Assembly (NCBI RefSeq): GCF_000017625.1
Contig: NC_009712.1
Coordinates: 2,356,001-2,420,000, forward strand
Direction: 5' to 3'
DNA from: Methanoregula boonei 6A8
Lineage (GTDB): Archaea; Halobacteriota; Methanomicrobia; Methanomicrobiales; Methanospirillaceae
Length of the DNA stretch: 64,000 nt
Shown here one piece after another: positions 10,464-42,294 of the stretch. Below the pieces are notes generated by a model, which was not told where the DNA came from, did not search any database, and was given only the letters and a program-made list of their open reading frames with translations. Position numbers and translations under genes: made by a program. Position 1 is the stretch's first letter, and each line of letters opens with the position of its first letter.

Positions 10464-10895
10464 ATGGTTGAATTAAAAGTCGTAGTATCAGACCCGAAGA
10501 CCGGTCGCGCATACAATGTCGATGCCAGCACCGGAGCGGCAGGAGCAGTCGTGGGCAAGAAGATCGGGGATGAAGTGGACGCCGGCCCCCTCGGGCTTGC
10601 CGGTTACAAGATCCTGATCACCGGGGGCTCGGACCAGACCGGGACACCGGCACGAAAGAGCCTGCCGGGCGCAGGGCGGAGGAAACTCCTGCTTGCAGAG
10701 GGCGTAGGGTTCCACCCCGTGATGGAAGGCGAGCGCAAGAGAAAGATGATCCGCGCCCACCAGATCACCCCCGAGTTTGTGCAGGTCAACGCACGCGTGA
10801 CCGCGTACGGCGAAAAGACCCTCGACGAGCTCTTCCCCAAGGTCGAAGGCGCCGAGAAGAAAGAGAAGACCAAAGAGAGAAAGGTCCGGAAGTAA
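10464..10895 (+). CDS. rps6e: 30S ribosomal protein eS6
   Basis: A full-length archaeal eS6 of 143 residues, a small-subunit ribosomal protein. Hallmarks are the N-terminal VVSDPKTGRAY, the central TGGSDQTGTPARKSLPGAGRRK (split here by reading as two parts: TGGSDQTGTP, then ARKSLPGAGRRK), and a basic C-terminus. Its last ~250 bases and the sequence just downstream are repeated, with damage, at 11242-11505. The intact copy has all expected segments and is surely the functional one. Confidence 0.97.
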   Translation: MVELKVVVSDPKTGRAYNVDASTGAAGAVVGKKIGDEVDAGPLGLAGYKILITGGSDQTGTPARKSLPGAGRRKLLLAEGVGFHPVMEGERKRKMIRAHQITPEFVQVNARVTAYGEKTLDELFPKVEGAEKKEKTKERKVRK

Positions 10896-11241: not shown

Positions 11242-11505
11242 CGGCACGAAAGAGCCTGGCGGGCGCGGGGCGTAGGGTTCCATCCTGTGATAGAAGGCGA
11301 GCGCAAGAGAAAGATGATCCGCGCCTACCAGATCACCCCCGAGTTCGTGCAGGTCAACGCCCGCGTGACCGCGTACGGCGAAAAGACCCTTGACGAGCTC
11401 TTCCCCAATGTCGAAGGCGCCGAGAAGAGAAAGAAAACCAAAGAGAGAAAGGTCCAGGAGTATGTTTCCCGGGCAAAAATACTTTTTTCGCGCTTCGTTG
11501 TTTTT
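11242..11505 (+). pseudogene. Broken partial duplicate of the eS6 gene
   Basis: This segment repeats 10648-10937 almost base for base. It begins inside the gene at CGGCACGAAAGAGCCTG and ends in the T-rich tail beyond the stop codon. It lacks the N-terminal half. It has also lost 26 bases between two GGGCG repeats (the copy-one segment starting near 10673), which shifts the frame. Several substitutions and a lost stop codon show it is not maintained. The surviving frame still matches eS6 from GERKRKMIRAYQ to KKTKERKVQ. Confidence 0.9.
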
Positions 11506-12103: not shown

Positions 12104-12523
12104 TTATTTGAGTTCATTTGTAGATTGTACAATGCTAGGGCTATCCACATAACAAAAAGATTGTGGAGGGACAAAACGCTCGAACGTGTTGTATGGATTT
12201 ATTGGTTCTTCGAATGTCTCCAACTCATCAATCGGAATCGCATAGCCGGTTTCTTTACCAGAAAAGTAATTAAAGAATTCTGACTCGCTTAGTCCAGAAA
12301 ACTCACGGAACTGCTCCCAAAGGAAATCCGGTGAGCCCTGCACAATTTTCCCGGGGTGGAAACAAGCAACAATTTTCTTCATAGGAGATGAGGAGTAAAT
12401 ATAAACGGTTTTACTATTGGAATCATTGAAGATCTTCTTTCGAAATTCGTAATGCTTGGTCCCCTCCAAGATAGCTTGGACATACTTAGGTTTGATGGAA
12501 AGCAAAACACCGGTCAATTCCAC
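12104..12523 (-). CDS. ASCH-domain protein
   Basis: A 139-residue protein made almost wholly of an ASCH (PUA-like) domain, a fold associated with RNA or modified-nucleotide binding. The family signature is LLSIKPKYVQAILEGTK followed by EFRKK near residue 26. A strand-turn with VYIYSSSPMKKIVACF follows, then the W-x2-F segment and a C-terminal PPQSFCYV. It starts with GTG at 12523, preceded by a weak GGGAG. It is read toward the eS6 duplicate and away from the PIN fusion. It closely resembles the ASCH protein at 14211 and the C-terminal domain of the gene at 14626, so the locus has three related domains. Confidence 0.85.
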   Translation of the reverse strand: MELTGVLLSIKPKYVQAILEGTKHYEFRKKIFNDSNSKTVYIYSSSPMKKIVACFHPGKIVQGSPDFLWEQFREFSGLSESEFFNYFSGKETGYAIPIDELETFEEPINPYNTFERFVPPQSFCYVDSPSIVQSTNELK

Positions 12524-12673
12524 AAACTCCCAAATCTAAAAAATATGTTTCGTCTATACCTATTTAAGTACCGCGTAGGAGAAGTGAAAATAAACATCCC
12601 GCTATCTTACTATAGCACTCTAAAAGATCCCAATGCGTTATATTCATCAGTTTGTAGAAAGGTATATGGGAGA

Positions 12674-12690
12674 TTTATAATATATATTTA
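12674..12690 (+). promoter_or_regulatory. Strong TATA box for the PIN/ASCH/GNAT genes
   Basis: The run TTTATAATATATATTTA is the most TATA-like sequence in this region and lies 32-48 bases before ATG 12722. There is no Shine-Dalgarno-like motif before that ATG, so a very short or absent leader is likely. Confidence 0.55.
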
Positions 12691-12721
12691 AAAAGATCGA
12701 TTGGTTGTGTCGGCGATCTCG

Positions 12722-14233
12722 ATGAAATTATTGTTGGATACTAATATTATTTTACACCGTGAAGGGAAAAATCCCATCAATCCAGATATTGGGAAATTAT
12801 TTTCCTGGATCGACCGGCTAGGTTATCAAAAATGTGTACACCAGATTACTGTTGATGAAATAAAAAAAATTCAAGATCAAAAAGTCCGTACCGCTTTTTT
12901 GGTGAAACTGGAAAGTTATCACATCCTTCCTACTGTTGCACCAATTCATACCGATGTAAAAAAAGTATCCGATCATTGGGATACCAAATCCAATGATTTA
13001 AACGATACTCTACTTCTAAATGAAGTCTATGCAGGTCGAGTTGATCTTCTACTAACGGAAGATAAGAAAATTCATAAAAAAGCCAGTGATCTGGGGATTA
13101 ATGGCAAGATCTTTACCATTGATTCATTATTAGAGAAATTAACGTCAGAAAATCCCGATTTTGTAGATTATAAGGTTCTAGCCATAAAAAAAGAGTTCTT
13201 TGGGAACATAGATATCACAGATGAATTTTTTAATAGTCTGCGAGAGGATTATTCGGATTTTAATGAGTGGTTTAATCGGAAATCTGACGAAATCGCGTAT
13301 GTTTGTATGTTGGAGAAAAAAGTCCTGGCCTTTCTCTACATGAAGGTTGAAACCGAAAAAGAGTCCTATAGCGATATTACACCGATATTTAAACCAAATA
13401 AACGGTTGAAAATTGGTACCTTCAAAGTGAAACTAAATGGCTATATTTTGGGAGAGCGCTTCCTAAAAATTATATTTGATAATGCGTTACACCAGTCCGT
13501 CAAAGAAATCTATGTTACAATTTTCCCCAAACGCCCCGAGCAAGAAAGGCTCATTCAGTTACTTACTGATTTTGGATTCACACCTCATGGAATTAAAACA
13601 TCTAAATACGGTGAGGAACTGGTATATGTCAGGGATTTTTCACCTAAAGTATCCCTCAATACTCCTAAAACAACATATCCCTACCTATCTAAAAACGCAA
13701 GAAAATTTATTGTTCCAATTTATCCGGCCTATCACACGAGCCTACTTCCTGACTCCATTCTTCAAAGAGAATCTCCAGCGGATTTTATTGAAAATGAACC
13801 TCACAGAAATGCTATCTCCAAAGTTTATATTTCGCGGTCCTATCGCAAAGATTTGCAATCCGGTGATGTAATTATTTTTTACAGAACTGGTGGATACCAT
13901 CAATCAGTAATCACGACTATTGGAATCGTGGAAAACGTCCATAAAAATATTCAAAGTTTAGAGGATTTTGTTTGGATTTGCAGAAAAAGGAGCGTGTTTT
14001 CTGCAAATGAGTTGAAAGAGCAGTGGGATAAATACCCAACCATTCGGCCATTCGTAGTAAATTTTCTCTATGCGTATTCATTCCCTAAACGACTCACTTT
14101 GCAACGCCTTATTCAGTTGGGAATTATTACCGATATTCATTCTGCACCTCGGGGATTTGAACTAATCTCTGAAGAGGCATTCGAAAAGATAGTTTTGGAG
14201 ACAGGAACCGATGGCCATATTATTATCAATTAA
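12722..14233 (+). CDS. PIN nuclease - GNAT - PUA-like fusion protein
   Basis: The product has 503 residues in three parts. Residues 1-140 form a PIN domain with candidate metal ligands D6 (LLLDTN), E46, D95 and D114. Residues about 155-305 resemble a GNAT acetyltransferase, with a motif-A-like stretch NGYILGERFLKIIF (239-252) and a C-terminal GFTPHG. Residues about 318-480 look like an EVE/ASCH-type PUA-like domain, with KVYISRSYRKDLQSGDVIIF and the hydrophobic strands that follow. It is A+T-rich unlike neighbouring core genes. It overlaps the next ASCH gene by 23 bases, suggesting translational coupling. Possible roles are RNA cleavage and tRNA or protein acetylation guided by a nucleic-acid reader; none is shown by sequence alone. 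Confidence 0.82.
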   Translation: MKLLLDTNIILHREGKNPINPDIGKLFSWIDRLGYQKCVHQITVDEIKKIQDQKVRTAFLVKLESYHILPTVAPIHTDVKKVSDHWDTKSNDLNDTLLLNEVYAGRVDLLLTEDKKIHKKASDLGINGKIFTIDSLLEKLTSENPDFVDYKVLAIKKEFFGNIDITDEFFNSLREDYSDFNEWFNRKSDEIAYVCMLEKKVLAFLYMKVETEKESYSDITPIFKPNKRLKIGTFKVKLNGYILGERFLKIIFDNALHQSVKEIYVTIFPKRPEQERLIQLLTDFGFTPHGIKTSKYGEELVYVRDFSPKVSLNTPKTTYPYLSKNARKFIVPIYPAYHTSLLPDSILQRESPADFIENEPHRNAISKVYISRSYRKDLQSGDVIIFYRTGGYHQSVITTIGIVENVHKNIQSLEDFVWICRKRSVFSANELKEQWDKYPTIRPFVVNFLYAYSFPKRLTLQRLIQLGIITDIHSAPRGFELISEEAFEKIVLETGTDGHIIIN

Positions 14234-14633
14234 GCCAGTATACGTCAAAAAAATTTTTTCCGGTGAAAAAACCGTCGAATTTCGAAAGGCGAAACCTAAC
14301 TATCCCCCAAGCGTGATTTTTATTTATGAAGGATCCCCCACAAAAAAAATTGTAGGGTGGTTCACTGTAAAAAAAATATTTTCCGGAACCCCAAATGAGA
14401 TTTGGGCGAGATATGGTACAGTCGGTGGAATTTCGAAAAAGATGTTTTTTGAATATTGCTCTGACAGCAAACAAATTTTCGCCTTCGAAATTGATAAAAA
14501 AAGCCGATTCCCCAATCCAATAGATCCTTTGAAAATTGATCCCAATTTTTCACCTCCCCAAAATTTCTCTTATCGAAATTATCCCTTGGCACAGTCTGGT
14601 GTTAACGAGCAAATGGAGTTAGACCATGTCTGA
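14211..14633 (+). CDS. ASCH-domain protein
   Basis: This 140-residue protein is a paralogue of the ASCH protein at 12104: LLSIKPVYVKKIFSGEKT and EFRKAKP at the N-terminus, FIYEGSPTKKIVGWF in the middle, and SPPQNFSYRNYP near the end. The start lies inside the 3' end of the PIN-GNAT gene, and the stop overlaps the start of the GNAT-ASCH gene by 8 bases. The three genes are therefore almost certainly one operon. As a free ASCH domain it may be a reader subunit or an antitoxin-like partner for the fused enzymes; this is inference. Confidence 0.85.
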   Translation: MAILLSIKPVYVKKIFSGEKTVEFRKAKPNYPPSVIFIYEGSPTKKIVGWFTVKKIFSGTPNEIWARYGTVGGISKKMFFEYCSDSKQIFAFEIDKKSRFPNPIDPLKIDPNFSPPQNFSYRNYPLAQSGVNEQMELDHV

Positions 14634-15897
14634 ATATCGACTTGATCGGATTCTTCAGGATGATGAGATTCGTCAATTAAATGACTTATTATCTCCAAAA
14701 TTTTCGGCAGATTATCCGAATTTTGAAATTTGGTTAAAAAGTGTTCAGACGGAAATGTCCAATGGTAAAAGGCGCTTTGCGATAGGGATCTGGAAAGAAA
14801 AATTGATTGCCACTTCGATTATCAAATTAACGGCCAGTGGTGTTGCAGAATTAAAAAGTTTTTTTGTCGATCCGGATTTTATCCATCAGAGATACAGTAA
14901 TGACTTATATTCTGAAGTGGAAAACCAGTGTCGTAAATCTGGTACGACTCGAATCATTTCTTATCTCTATATCGATAACAAGGAAATGATTGAATTTTTA
15001 ATTTCCAAAGGATTTTTAATTTCAGGTAAAGATGATCTCTACGGTAATGGGCGGGAATCCTATATCCTATCAAAGGCCTTAATGCCAGAATATTTTGGGG
15101 ATCCTTTCGATTGGGAAAATTTGGGAGGATGGTATCTCAGTATTGTTCTTAAGGCTGCGAAAATTGAGGATCATCCGGTTGTAAGCGATCGCGCTTTTGA
15201 TAGACATATGAAAATTGATTTTAATAATTGTTCATTAGATGCTCTTGTTGAAATTAAAGATGAAAAAGTTGACTTCGATCCAATTATGGTTTTACATCAA
15301 TGCTGTTCAACCTCTAAGTACCATTTTCCAATATTTGTGGCACGTTCGTTTTCTAAACGGGCAGAAAAATATGCAAGAGAGAATGGCGTGCTGATATTTT
15401 CATCTAAAGATATCGCAAAGATCCTTGGTAACCTACCTCCTGTTTTCTGCGATGGTCCCATCAAGGGTATGGTTGTCTCAATTAAACCAGAATACCTTAA
15501 ACGACTTCTTCAAAAGAAGCGCCCTCTTTATTATGTTAAAGGCGGGCCCATAGGGAAGAAATTACAAAAAGGTCAAACTCTGGTTTTTTACTCACTTGAT
15601 CCTGAAAAAGCAGTCACTGCCCTTGGTGAAATCCAATCTGTTCATATCGACACTCCGCAAAAAATCTGGAATCGCTTTGGTAAACATTTGGCCTTTTCAG
15701 AGCAGGAGTATTTCCGATTTGCATCCATCAAACAAAACATAGTCGCAATTGAATTGAGTAAAATCACGCCCATCGCCCCGATAAAAGAATCCGAGTTAGA
15801 CGCAATAATCCCTAAAAAAGATAGAAGTGGATCTTATCTCTCCGACAAAACGCTTAAAAAAATATTAAAGTATGCAAATTTGCAGCATTCCATCTAA
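14626..15897 (+). CDS. GNAT - restriction-nuclease-like - ASCH fusion protein
   Basis: The 423-residue product has three regions. Residues 1-150 are GNAT-like, with LKSFFVDPDFIHQRYSNDLY (76-95) and a following EMIEFLISKGF helix-strand typical of the fold. Residues about 160-270 resemble the restriction-endonuclease-like (Mrr) fold, with DALVEIKDEKV (205-215) as a possible core and FPIFVARSFSKRAEKYA then GVLIFSSKDIAKIL as in Mrr C-terminal halves. Residues about 282-390 are a third ASCH-like domain starting VVSIKPEYLKRLL. Catalytic residues of the middle part are uncertain. It ends the operon and is followed by a hairpin at 15898-15921. Confidence 0.8.
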   Translation: MSEYRLDRILQDDEIRQLNDLLSPKFSADYPNFEIWLKSVQTEMSNGKRRFAIGIWKEKLIATSIIKLTASGVAELKSFFVDPDFIHQRYSNDLYSEVENQCRKSGTTRIISYLYIDNKEMIEFLISKGFLISGKDDLYGNGRESYILSKALMPEYFGDPFDWENLGGWYLSIVLKAAKIEDHPVVSDRAFDRHMKIDFNNCSLDALVEIKDEKVDFDPIMVLHQCCSTSKYHFPIFVARSFSKRAEKYARENGVLIFSSKDIAKILGNLPPVFCDGPIKGMVVSIKPEYLKRLLQKKRPLYYVKGGPIGKKLQKGQTLVFYSLDPEKAVTALGEIQSVHIDTPQKIWNRFGKHLAFSEQEYFRFASIKQNIVAIELSKITPIAPIKESELDAIIPKKDRSGSYLSDKTLKKILKYANLQHSI

Positions 15898-16235: not shown

Positions 16236-16796
16236 TCACTCCGCGTGAAACACCCCCTCTAGGCAATACACCGTCATCTTCTCCACCGTCCCCTCATCTT
16301 CGCACCGGCTATGAAGGTCGCAGGCCGGGCACATCATCCGGCCCAGGTCCTTCTTGTCCACGTTGAGCGTACCCTTCTGCTCGTGAAGATCGTAGAGCAG
16401 CTTAAGATACTTGCCCTCTGCAATCCGTGGGATCGCGTCTTTCTCTTTGAGGCCCTTCCACTCGTACAGCCGCCGGGCACCTTTGGCCGAATTGCACGGC
16501 CTGCAGACCCGGATAGCGTTGTCGGGGATGTCCGGGCCGCCACAACATCGGGGGAGGATGTGTTCGGTAGTGAGCGGACCGCCCGCTGCCCCGCAGTAGA
16601 TGCATGCACCCGGATTCTCGTGCTCGTGCAGCCATTCCCGGATCGTGGACGACCACACGATCTCTCCGTCACGGAGCTTCACAAACCGGCTCATCTGGAA
16701 GGCCCGGGCATTTGAAAGCCCGGCGGATTTCGAGATCAGCTTTGCGTACTGCCAGAAGATCTGGTCACGGATCGTTTTTACAGCAGAGGGAGGCAT
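16236..16796 (-). CDS. HNH endonuclease family protein
   Basis: The 186-residue protein has a classic HNH zinc-finger nuclease core: CIYCGAAGG, LTTEHILPR with the catalytic-type His, and NAIRVCRPCNSAKGARR, where paired cysteines hold the structural zinc. The N-terminal ~60 residues are helical and the C-terminus has two more CxxC-like pairs (CPACDLHSRC). It lies upstream of the broken antitoxin-like gene on the same strand. It may be a free-standing nuclease of a mobile or defence locus; the target is unknown. Confidence 0.88.
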   Translation of the reverse strand: MPPSAVKTIRDQIFWQYAKLISKSAGLSNARAFQMSRFVKLRDGEIVWSSTIREWLHEHENPGACIYCGAAGGPLTTEHILPRCCGGPDIPDNAIRVCRPCNSAKGARRLYEWKGLKEKDAIPRIAEGKYLKLLYDLHEQKGTLNVDKKDLGRMMCPACDLHSRCEDEGTVEKMTVYCLEGVFHAE

Positions 16797-16998: not shown

Positions 16999-17127
16999 AT
17001 GCCAACCAAACGAATCCATAACCCCGTAACCGGAAAATATTATCAACTGCGGCAGCGTTCGAGCGTGAACGGTGAAGCAGGACAGATCAAGGGGTTGTGG
17101 AGCCCAAAGAAAAAAGCAAGGAGATAA
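16999..17127 (+). CDS. Small basic protein, likely antitoxin of the PIN pair
   Basis: A 42-residue basic protein beginning MPTKRIHNPVTGKYYQLRQR and ending KKKARR. Its stop lies 31 bases inside the following PIN gene, which argues that the two are co-translated. Small basic proteins in this position before PIN toxins are common in methanogens and are taken to be antitoxins. The internal ATG at 16999 was used because upstream codons in the frame look non-coding. Confidence 0.65.
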   Translation: MPTKRIHNPVTGKYYQLRQRSSVNGEAGQIKGLWSPKKKARR

Positions 17128-17804
17128 CGTTGACGTACGTCGGCAGCCGATGGTGTATTGATACCAATACACTCGTCCCCTGGCTGATCACTGACTCCGG
17201 AGTCCTTGCGCTTCTTATCAAAAAATACCAAATCCCCTCCGATTTTCGCGATATCTATCTGAACCGGCATAAGCCTTCCATTGATTTCATCCAGGGAATT
17301 ATCGATCTGAGATCAAAGGGATTGCCGGATGAATTTTATTTTTCATACCTCGCGATGAATGAAGTCTACTCTGCCGTCCGCGACGAAATCCGGAGCATCC
17401 TGTTATTCAGGAACGGTACCCCGCTTTCCCGCTGGAACGAAGAGAAGAATGCCATCGATCTTCCGGAAGACTCCATGGAGTCCGTATACGAAGATATTGA
17501 AAACAGATTCGATGTATTGTTCGGGAACGGCTCAATCTTCCCCTTGTCCGACGAACCAGAAGAAGATGGCGATAACTTTTCTGAAATTGTCGCCTCTCTG
17601 ATCTTTAAATTCAAGAGGGTAAAGACGCAGGACGCGATTCTACTTGCAACCGCCATCTCAATCAAAGCCAATTATTTCGTGACATTCGATCAAAGACTGG
17701 TGACGGAGGTATCAAAGGCACTCGCTGACAAATACCGGCTTGTGCTCATTTCCCCAAAAGAGGGGAATGCCCGACTTAAAAAAATCGGGAAACAAAACAA
17801 ATAA
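17097..17804 (+). CDS. PIN-domain protein, likely toxin
   Basis: A 235-residue protein with PIN-type acidic residues spread as expected: D22 (CIDTNTLV), E in AMNEVYSAV, D in KTQDAILLATAI and D in FVTFDQRL. PIN toxins are usually ribonucleases that cut tRNA or rRNA. It is longer than typical VapC (about 135 residues) because of a charged insert in the middle, so the substrate may differ. It starts with GTG within the preceding small gene. Confidence 0.82.
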   Translation: MEPKEKSKEITLTYVGSRWCIDTNTLVPWLITDSGVLALLIKKYQIPSDFRDIYLNRHKPSIDFIQGIIDLRSKGLPDEFYFSYLAMNEVYSAVRDEIRSILLFRNGTPLSRWNEEKNAIDLPEDSMESVYEDIENRFDVLFGNGSIFPLSDEPEEDGDNFSEIVASLIFKFKRVKTQDAILLATAISIKANYFVTFDQRLVTEVSKALADKYRLVLISPKEGNARLKKIGKQNK

Positions 17805-17922: not shown

Positions 17923-18273
17923 ATGACCATGGCACTCTGCACAGTCCGGGAAAAAGGTGACTGCCTCATCGTCACCCTGCCCGTTTCTCTCGATCACGTG
18001 GAAGCCATGGCCCTGGAAAAGGAGCTCCGGGAATATGTTGCACGCGAACCAAAGGCACTCCTCTGCGACATGTCCGGATCAGAATATATATCGAGCTCGG
18101 GGCTCCGGGTGTTCCTTGCCATCGGGAAAAAGGCAAAAGAATCCCATGTCCACTTCGGTGTCTTTGCGCTCACGAAATTTGTCGACCATATCATTTCCAT
18201 GACCGGGTTTACACAGATTATTGCCATCTACGATACCGAAGAGGCAGCAGTCCGGGCAGTATCCCGGCTCTAA
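17923..18273 (+). CDS. STAS-domain protein, anti-sigma-antagonist-like
   Basis: A 116-residue single STAS domain of the SpoIIAA type. The conserved segment with the phosphorylatable serine is visible as SEYISSSGLRVFLAIGKKAK around residues 49-68. In bacteria such proteins bind anti-sigma kinases; in methanogens they occur without a sigma factor and may work in other partner-switching circuits. A second ATG two codons downstream at 17929 is possible. No kinase gene adjoins it. Confidence 0.9.
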   Translation: MTMALCTVREKGDCLIVTLPVSLDHVEAMALEKELREYVAREPKALLCDMSGSEYISSSGLRVFLAIGKKAKESHVHFGVFALTKFVDHIISMTGFTQIIAIYDTEEAAVRAVSRL

Positions 18274-41154: not shown

Positions 41155-42294
41155 CTATTTTTTGAATACATCAGCACTACACTCAAATTTTCGCTTTTTC
41201 ATTTCAGGATCGGATGATCCAACTAACATTATGCCAGAGACATTACACGGTCCATGAGAGTTTTTTAATGTATATCTCACGGTCAGCGTCTTCTCGTATC
41301 CATTTGGAACATCTGTTTGAGCTTGTTCGCTACTTTGAAGAATTAATTCTGGCAAATAAGTCATGTCCATCGATTTTTTATCAGCATTAATCAATGTCGC
41401 AATAAGTCTTGTTTCAGTTTTTGAGGGGCGGGGATATCCTGGACGAATTAGTTTGTATATTTCTGCCTTTGATAGGCCAATACACTCGTATATTCCTGTA
41501 AGGAGGGATTCTTCAAGTGTGGACAGATAATTAGTTACGATTGTTTTAATCAACTCAAGGGATTTATTACCGTGGACGATTGAATCCCGAATCTCTTTAA
41601 TTTCCACCCATTCGTTGTACGATTTTCCTTGAATTTCCATTAGCAAATATTTGATACCAGCGAGATTGATCAATTCCGTTGGTTTTTCTTTCCTGTGGTA
41701 ATGGCGTAGGGAATGGTTCGTAATGTTTTCAATATACTTCTCTTTAATTACGGGATTAAGAATTTCAAGACCTAACCAATAACAAGTATACTTTGTAAAG
41801 TGATCTGACTCGAATATCCCCATTCTAAACCAGCGGATGGCGCGTTCAATTCGTTGAGGGAATTTTTTTCGATACGGTATCTCCGTCTCATTCAACTTGC
41901 TGAATAAAATTCCAAATTTCTCGGGATCAAATTCTCTAACTTTACCAAGATTATGTGGCAACACAGTATTCTGGATAAATTCTCGGTCGTGAATTCCATC
42001 ATCCCATTCTATCGCCTTTTCAAAAATCGGTACATCTGTTGGTGTGACTAATTGCAGTGAAATTAGTCCGATTGCAGCATCGAAAAACACTAACGCATCA
42101 TCAATAGCAGATTCGATTTTCTCTGAAGAAATAATTACATCAACTTTACAGCAGTGAAGCCAACGACATTTATCCTCGATTGGTCCAATTGAATCATAAA
42201 TTGTCATCGAACATATTGGAAAATTGAAATCGACCCGCGTTTTCAATTTAAAATTGGTTTTAACGGAATATCGAACTAAATAACTATGACTCAT
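41155..42294 (-). CDS. HEPN-domain protein, ApeA-like
   Basis: The 379-residue protein has an N-terminal beta region (about 1-130) and a helical C-terminal half with the ribonuclease-type HEPN motif R236-D-S-I-V-H241 in EIKEIRDSIVHGNKS. The run IERAIRWFRMGIFESDHF and the following WLGLEIL helix resemble the ApeA-like HEPN family, in which RNases act in anti-phage defence. A TATA-like ATTATATTTTAA (42318-42329, minus) lies 24-35 bases upstream of the start. Composition is markedly A+T-rich, unlike neighbours. Confidence 0.78.
   Translation of the reverse strand: MSHSYLVRYSVKTNFKLKTRVDFNFPICSMTIYDSIGPIEDKCRWLHCCKVDVIISSEKIESAIDDALVFFDAAIGLISLQLVTPTDVPIFEKAIEWDDGIHDREFIQNTVLPHNLGKVREFDPEKFGILFSKLNETEIPYRKKFPQRIERAIRWFRMGIFESDHFTKYTCYWLGLEILNPVIKEKYIENITNHSLRHYHRKEKPTELINLAGIKYLLMEIQGKSYNEWVEIKEIRDSIVHGNKSLELIKTIVTNYLSTLEESLLTGIYECIGLSKAEIYKLIRPGYPRPSKTETRLIATLINADKKSMDMTYLPELILQSSEQAQTDVPNGYEKTLTVRYTLKNSHGPCNVSGIMLVGSSDPEMKKRKFECSADVFKK

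Follow-up and report, generated by a model that had tools for sequence, protein, structure and literature searches.

An A+T-rich island of Methanoregula boonei with a PDC-M11-type PIN-GNAT-EVE/ASCH gene pair and a third gene: a candidate toxin-antitoxin-type module

Proteins of the (PIN)-GNAT-EVE type, nearly always encoded together with an ASCH gene, have been described as putative toxin-antitoxin (TA) systems that sit near type I restriction-modification (RM) genes or in prophages, and none of these modules has been experimentally characterised (Bell et al. 2020, PMC7641849; the content of Iyer 2013 on such pairs is taken here via that paper). The pair is represented in PADLOC by the models PDC-M11A and PDC-M11B (hereafter M11A and M11B), and the record of Escherichia phage PhiR47_2 (PV340567) annotates the same pair as a toxin, GevT, and an antitoxin, GevA; we found no paper that uses either GevT/GevA or PDC-M11 as a name. 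We here compare with these systems an island of four genes, P0001 to P0004, in a 64,000-nucleotide stretch of the Methanoregula boonei 6A8 genome (NC_009712.1, positions 2,356,001 to 2,420,000; referred to as the window). We consider the island, with a probability of about 0.6, to be a TA-type module of the (PIN)-GNAT-EVE plus ASCH kind that was acquired horizontally, is probably antiviral and has been extended by a third gene.

The core pair and its overlapping junction

P0002 matched the M11A model over its full length (residues 1-502) and retained the PIN acidic residues D6, D95 and D114, its other domains being GNAT-like and EVE (PUA-like), and the adjoining P0003 matched M11B. The core pair P0002/P0003 is already catalogued and is not new. 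Matches to Pfam were weak for PIN, EVE and ASCH, with one GNAT match in addition, and it was because these matches were so weak that the array had looked new. An initial annotation, made from the sequence alone, had guessed at a conflict system, in agreement with PADLOC and with Bell et al. 2020. Its placement of four genes at 12104-15897 with overlaps of 23 and 8 bases was confirmed by the open reading frame (ORF) coordinates (P0002/P0003, 14211-14233; P0003/P0004, 14626-14633), as was its description of the composition as foreign to the surroundings: GC content is 37.2% at 12.0-15.93 kb compared with a mean of 56.7% (s.d. 4.2%) in the other 1-kb windows, and GC at third codon positions (GC3) is 0.33-0.44 in the island genes compared with 0.74-0.79 in core neighbours.

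The island shares with the PDC-M11 systems of Iyer 2013 and Bell 2020 a full-length M11A (P0002), M11B proteins (P0003 and P0001), the gene order and the coupled overlap, and differs from them in the addition of P0004 and of an orphan second M11B. GevT/GevA of PhiR47_2 has the same GNAT-EVE plus ASCH composition and an identical 23-nt overlap, but lacks both a PIN domain and a third gene (37% identity over GNAT-EVE). The pair ORFD/ORF5 of psiM100 (an archaeal prophage, insert IFa) likewise encodes PIN-GNAT-EVE plus ASCH with a 23-nt overlap, in this case in an archaeal virus, whereas its upstream partners are others (ORFB, ORFC), P4 (P0004 and its relatives) is absent and identity is approximately 30%. 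The GNAT toxins AtaT and TacT, which are paired with a DUF1778 antitoxin, resemble the present pair in having a GNAT fold as the toxin candidate of a two-gene module. Here, however, ASCH replaces the ribbon-helix-helix (DUF1778) antitoxin, the toxin gene comes first, PIN and EVE domains are added, and the canonical Q/RxxGxG loop is not present, the corresponding loops reading GYILGE in P0002 and IHQRYS in P0004. A survey of 295 genomes of this phylum of archaea gave strong matches to the pair in 27, and of 5426 complete E. coli genomes 274 contained GevT/GevA at an identity of at least 99%.

The final 23 bases of the M11A gene, stop codon included, begin with the ATG of the ASCH gene in approximately 36 of 41 pairs (33 distinct pairs by script, 2 from annotated coordinates and 1 from the junction sequence), and the junction in these pairs is close to RATGAANGTTTTACTRTCMATTAA. 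The 23 bases are dual-coding, giving the last residues of the EVE domain (FTVN-stop) in one frame and the first strand of ASCH (MNVLLSIK) in the other. This overlap is seen in pairs from methanogens, haloarchaea, Bacillota and Pseudomonadota and from their phages. In Alphaproteobacteria the order is another, with the ASCH gene, sometimes with a helix-turn-helix domain, located upstream. The overlap is a tight translational coupling that has long been fixed, and no earlier description of it was found in the literature covered, which did not include Iyer 2013. Another layout with a doubled ASCH was met on a Mesorhizobium plasmid (locus L098, 4561-6874), where M11A lies between an upstream ASCH gene and a convergent downstream one.

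Solitary ASCH genes and remnants of M11A

P0001 and P0003 belong to one family, but P0001 grouped with the M11B of another methanogen (genome G223; tree support 99/97) and not with P0003. Directly upstream of P0001, in register with its start region, are 20 codons that match the end of G223 M11A (DETYFLDLGVCGIDRCFAFH compared with DSKYYLLSEACGIDRRFTVH) and that have lost the stop. P0001 is what a second pair left behind when it lost its M11A gene by deletion, and is a candidate orphan antitoxin. The initial annotation had a plus-strand array facing a minus-strand ASCH gene, a layout that is real and in which the facing gene can now be identified as the candidate orphan antitoxin of this toxin-deleted pair. 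An extra ASCH gene stands beside the array in two other genomes as well, G375 (locus L091) and G149 (L055), each preceded by a remnant of M11A of another type (28 residues at 50% identity, E 7e-8, and 28 residues at 61%, respectively). The loss of M11A from a second pair, with retention of the ASCH, has therefore happened independently at least twice.

Intact M11A was accompanied by M11B in all 20 cases in the survey of 295 archaeal genomes, whereas M11B was found without M11A in at least four genomes. An orphan M11B stands beside the array in three genomes, and each of these orphans is preceded by an M11A remnant. G149 has a broken cognate ASCH and retains only the orphan ASCH, 2.2 kb away. 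No M11A remnant was present within 1.7 kb upstream of the orphan M11B genes of G215, G096, G023 and G218, so that remnants are a feature solely of the three orphans that adjoin the array. The unequal retention of the two genes, with M11B found without M11A but no intact M11A without M11B, would be expected of a toxin (M11A) and its antitoxin (M11B); this is a reading of genomic patterns and not a proof. M11B genes with long COOH-terminal extensions of unknown family (608-714 residues in total) were also encountered, at L073 9607-11607, L074 6540-8366 and L075 6017-8161.

The third gene

We found no published description of a P0004-type protein, and P0004 is apparently the undescribed component of the array; the initial view that the combination as a whole was undescribed holds for this third gene but not for P0002/P0003, a known candidate pair. 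PADLOC models matched P0004 solely via its ASCH-like part. An AlphaFold2 model (pLDDT 82) showed a GNAT fold at the NH2-terminus, with PaiA-like Foldseek matches, and an ASCH fold at the COOH-terminus (ZmASCH, E 3e-10). The middle part, folded alone (pTM 0.76), matched the PD-(D/E)xK enzymes NucS/EndoMS (E 2.5e-4), AspBHI (9e-4) and MspJI in Foldseek. The module calls of the initial annotation (two acetyltransferase-like, two nuclease-like and three ASCH-like) were thus supported by profiles, AlphaFold2 and Foldseek. Its statement that the three ASCH domains are clearly related fits P0001 and P0003 as members of one family, although the closest relative found for P0001 is the G223 M11B, and it fits P0004 less well, given that the COOH-terminal domain of P0004 does not have the GxKxxExR signature; this domain is related to M11B (E 1e-16) and to the EVE domain of M11A (E 4e-12), and the GNAT domain to that of M11A (E 1e-6). 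The nuclease motif D192-x16-E209-x-K211 is present in all seven core P4 proteins and lost in the divergent G232 and G261 forms. G149, G375, G032, an ANME-3 Methanosarcinaceae bin and a Methanoperedens bin retain the Q/RxxGxG loop of the GNAT domain; because the loop is altered in P0004, this protein probably does not bind acetyl-CoA normally, as judged from the motif. All three P4 domains change mainly at third codon positions, a sign of purifying selection. P0004 has in common with the modification-dependent restriction enzymes AspBHI and MspJI a PD-(D/E)xK fold together with a reader domain, and differs from them in its additional GNAT domain and in its operon with PIN-GNAT-EVE/ASCH; cleavage of modified DNA by P0004 is a prediction. 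Fusions of restriction endonucleases with ASCH have been noted (PMC10853773).

P4 was searched for in whole genomes independently of M11. Full-length P4 of the core kind was found in nine archaeal genomes: the present one, G149, G375, a Methanocellaceae bin (decayed), G032, the ANME-3 and Methanoperedens bins, G232 and G261. It adjoins M11A in all nine, lying downstream of M11B in seven (in G149, downstream of the M11B remnant) and divergent from M11A in two. The array thus recurs in archaea with its genes linked, where unlinked genes had been named beforehand as evidence against a system. In G032 and ANME-3 the M11B ASCH and P4 are fused into one protein of 565-566 residues. The Methanoperedens P4 is sister to the P4 of G032 and ANME-3 (100/98), whereas its M11A and M11B fall in another well-supported clade, and the discordance between the P4 and M11A trees indicates that P4 joined at least two M11 lineages separately. 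In a distant group (G225, G113 and G026) a P4-like protein is followed by its own ASCH, with no M11A beside it, a layout suggestive of P4 as an ASCH partner in its own right. No match to P4 was found in viruses or plasmids. In Methanoperedens the cassette is enclosed by type I RM genes, and such genes also occur in its vicinity in G261 and ANME-3 (loci L094, L059 and L093), a neighbourhood that fits a role in defence.

Two further kinds of P4 locus were observed. P4-like GNAT-X-ASCH genes that have lost the nuclease motif and have their own downstream ASCH gene, without an adjacent M11A, are located at L060 959-2705, L061 8336-10078 and L087 6151-7558, possibly a stand-alone sister pair in other archaea. 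At L058 2790-4664 and L059 9735-11501 the P4 variants are divergently transcribed, their nuclease motif is degenerate and they have COOH-terminal extensions.

Proposed function, alternatives and genomic setting

If the island is a TA-type module, P0003 would be the antitoxin holding both P0002 and P0004 in check; the linkage and fusion of M11B with P4 are the basis for supposing that M11B also neutralises P4. Infection or loss of the element would upset P0003, and P0002 would then attack RNA, with PIN cleaving, EVE picking out modified RNA and GNAT acetylating. P0004, by means of its nuclease and PUA-like domains, would cleave nucleic acid, with base-modified DNA as the most likely substrate, and in this copy probably acts without acetyl transfer. 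P0001 would serve as a spare antitoxin. More tentatively, one ASCH antitoxin might control two effectors, a PIN-GNAT-EVE protein directed at RNA and a GNAT/PD-(D/E)xK/ASCH-like nuclease directed at DNA, in an archaeal three-gene, dual-target abortive infection system whose third gene moves between TA pairs as an add-on effector. Several points weigh against the TA interpretation. What is attacked (RNA or DNA, and with which modification) is inferred only. The M11A remnant in the window covers no more than 20 residues (E 0.008, from a search of a very small database), and ASCH genes kept alone could reflect another function of ASCH. Given that the GNAT loop of P0002 is non-canonical and that of P0004 is lost, acetyl transfer is doubtful. 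None of the three nearest right-hand neighbours of the island matched PADLOC or is a known defence gene, and no published experiment on the archaeal (PIN)-GNAT-EVE/ASCH family was found.

The same domains would also suit an accessory to modification-dependent restriction, in which ASCH, EVE and PUA read base modifications, PIN and PD-(D/E)xK restrict foreign nucleic acid that carries modifications or serve as a backup to type I RM, and P0003 is a specificity subunit. The likeness of the P4 nuclease fold to AspBHI and MspJI, the position of the cassette within an HsdR/S/M operon in Methanoperedens and the fusion of ASCH to HsdS (Bell 2020, PMC7641849) speak for this role. We nevertheless regard it as unlikely, given that no RM gene was found next to the copy in the window and that orphan ASCH genes with toxin remnants, together with the lack of any intact M11A without M11B, are better accounted for by an antitoxin. 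The island might instead be an acquired relic that has no present function in this strain and is decaying, as the loss of the P0004 GNAT loop, the near-complete deletion of the second M11A and stop codons in the G036 copies would indicate. With all four ORFs open, and with the codon-position bias of purifying selection in P0004 relative to relatives at approximately 60% identity, such decay appears improbable. Least probable of all is a cycle of acetylation and reversal, in which the GNAT domains acetylate a base or aminoacyl-tRNA and ASCH removes the acetyl group in the manner of YqfB on N4-acetylcytidine, an enzymatic antitoxin as in DarT/DarG. YqfB, an ASCH amidohydrolase (PMC6972931), provides a precedent, and K, E and R of the M11B GxKxxExR signature are invariant in 41 sequences, beyond what a mere binding partner would need. 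Of the YqfB residues K21/T24/R26, however, the Lys and Arg are invariant but the nucleophile Thr24 is replaced by Glu in 41 of 41 M11B proteins, and a YqfB-type amidohydrolase was rejected for P0003; the GNAT loops, non-canonical or lost, also argue against this scheme.

Although the (PIN)-GNAT-EVE/ASCH pair is widespread, no published experimental work on it came to our notice. The assignment of toxin and antitoxin becomes directly testable through the strongly conserved 23-nt overlap, the fusions of ASCH with P4 and the orphan ASCH genes preceded by remnants of a toxin gene, and the third gene would bring a dual-nuclease architecture to archaeal immunity, a poorly charted field.

Table 1 Features of the island, in window positions
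Feature	Position	Strand	Basis
P0001, solitary ASCH (PDC-M11B family), orphan antitoxin candidate	12104..12523	-	PDC-M11B E 2e-49; tree with G223 M11B
Decayed COOH-terminal 20 codons of second M11A, DETYFLDLGVCGIDRCFAFH	12495..12554	-	50% identity to last 20 residues of G223 M11A
TATA-like box	12674..12692	+	Consensus match only
P0002, PIN-GNAT-EVE, PDC-M11A/GevT-like effector, toxin candidate	12722..14233	+	PDC-M11A E 4e-212; PIN acidic residues
P0003, cognate ASCH, PDC-M11B/GevA-like antitoxin candidate	14211..14633	+	PDC-M11B E 1e-37; conserved overlap
P0004, third gene: GNAT-like ~1-152, PD-(D/E)xK nuclease ~163-270, ASCH/PUA-like ~280-423	14626..15897	+	AlphaFold2 model, Foldseek, motif

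For the start of P0002, ATG 12722 was preferred over TTG 12701 on the basis of homology and the position of the TATA-like run TTTATAATATATATTTAAA, which lies approximately 30-48 bases 5' of this ATG. The initial annotation had called a strong TATA box at 12674. The run is present there, but it is one of three such matches in the whole island, and its role as a promoter element of the array is plausible but not proven.

The host genome is a single contig of 2.54 Mb. The ribosomal protein gene rps6e lies near a DUF2240 gene in the 11 congeners compared, whereas here approximately 8 kb (10.9-18.95 kb), including the island, separates the two, and the region has the appearance of a foreign-DNA hot spot. 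No M11A was found in other genomes of the genus within the 295-genome set. No 12-mers are shared between 11.0-12.3 and 15.6-16.9 kb that would indicate flanking direct repeats, and no insertion mechanism can therefore be named. The insert also carries genes for an HNH endonuclease (16236-16796), a PIN-like protein (17097-17804) and a STAS protein (17923-18273). On its left side, at 11268-11462, the 3' part of rps6e is partially duplicated (93% identity over 195 bases to 10464-10895), a duplication unique to this genome among 13 of the genus. A second A+T-rich spot in the window (41155-42294, minus strand; 38% GC) contains a solitary ORF (379 residues, unknown family) next to a gene that resembles lysyl-tRNA synthetase.

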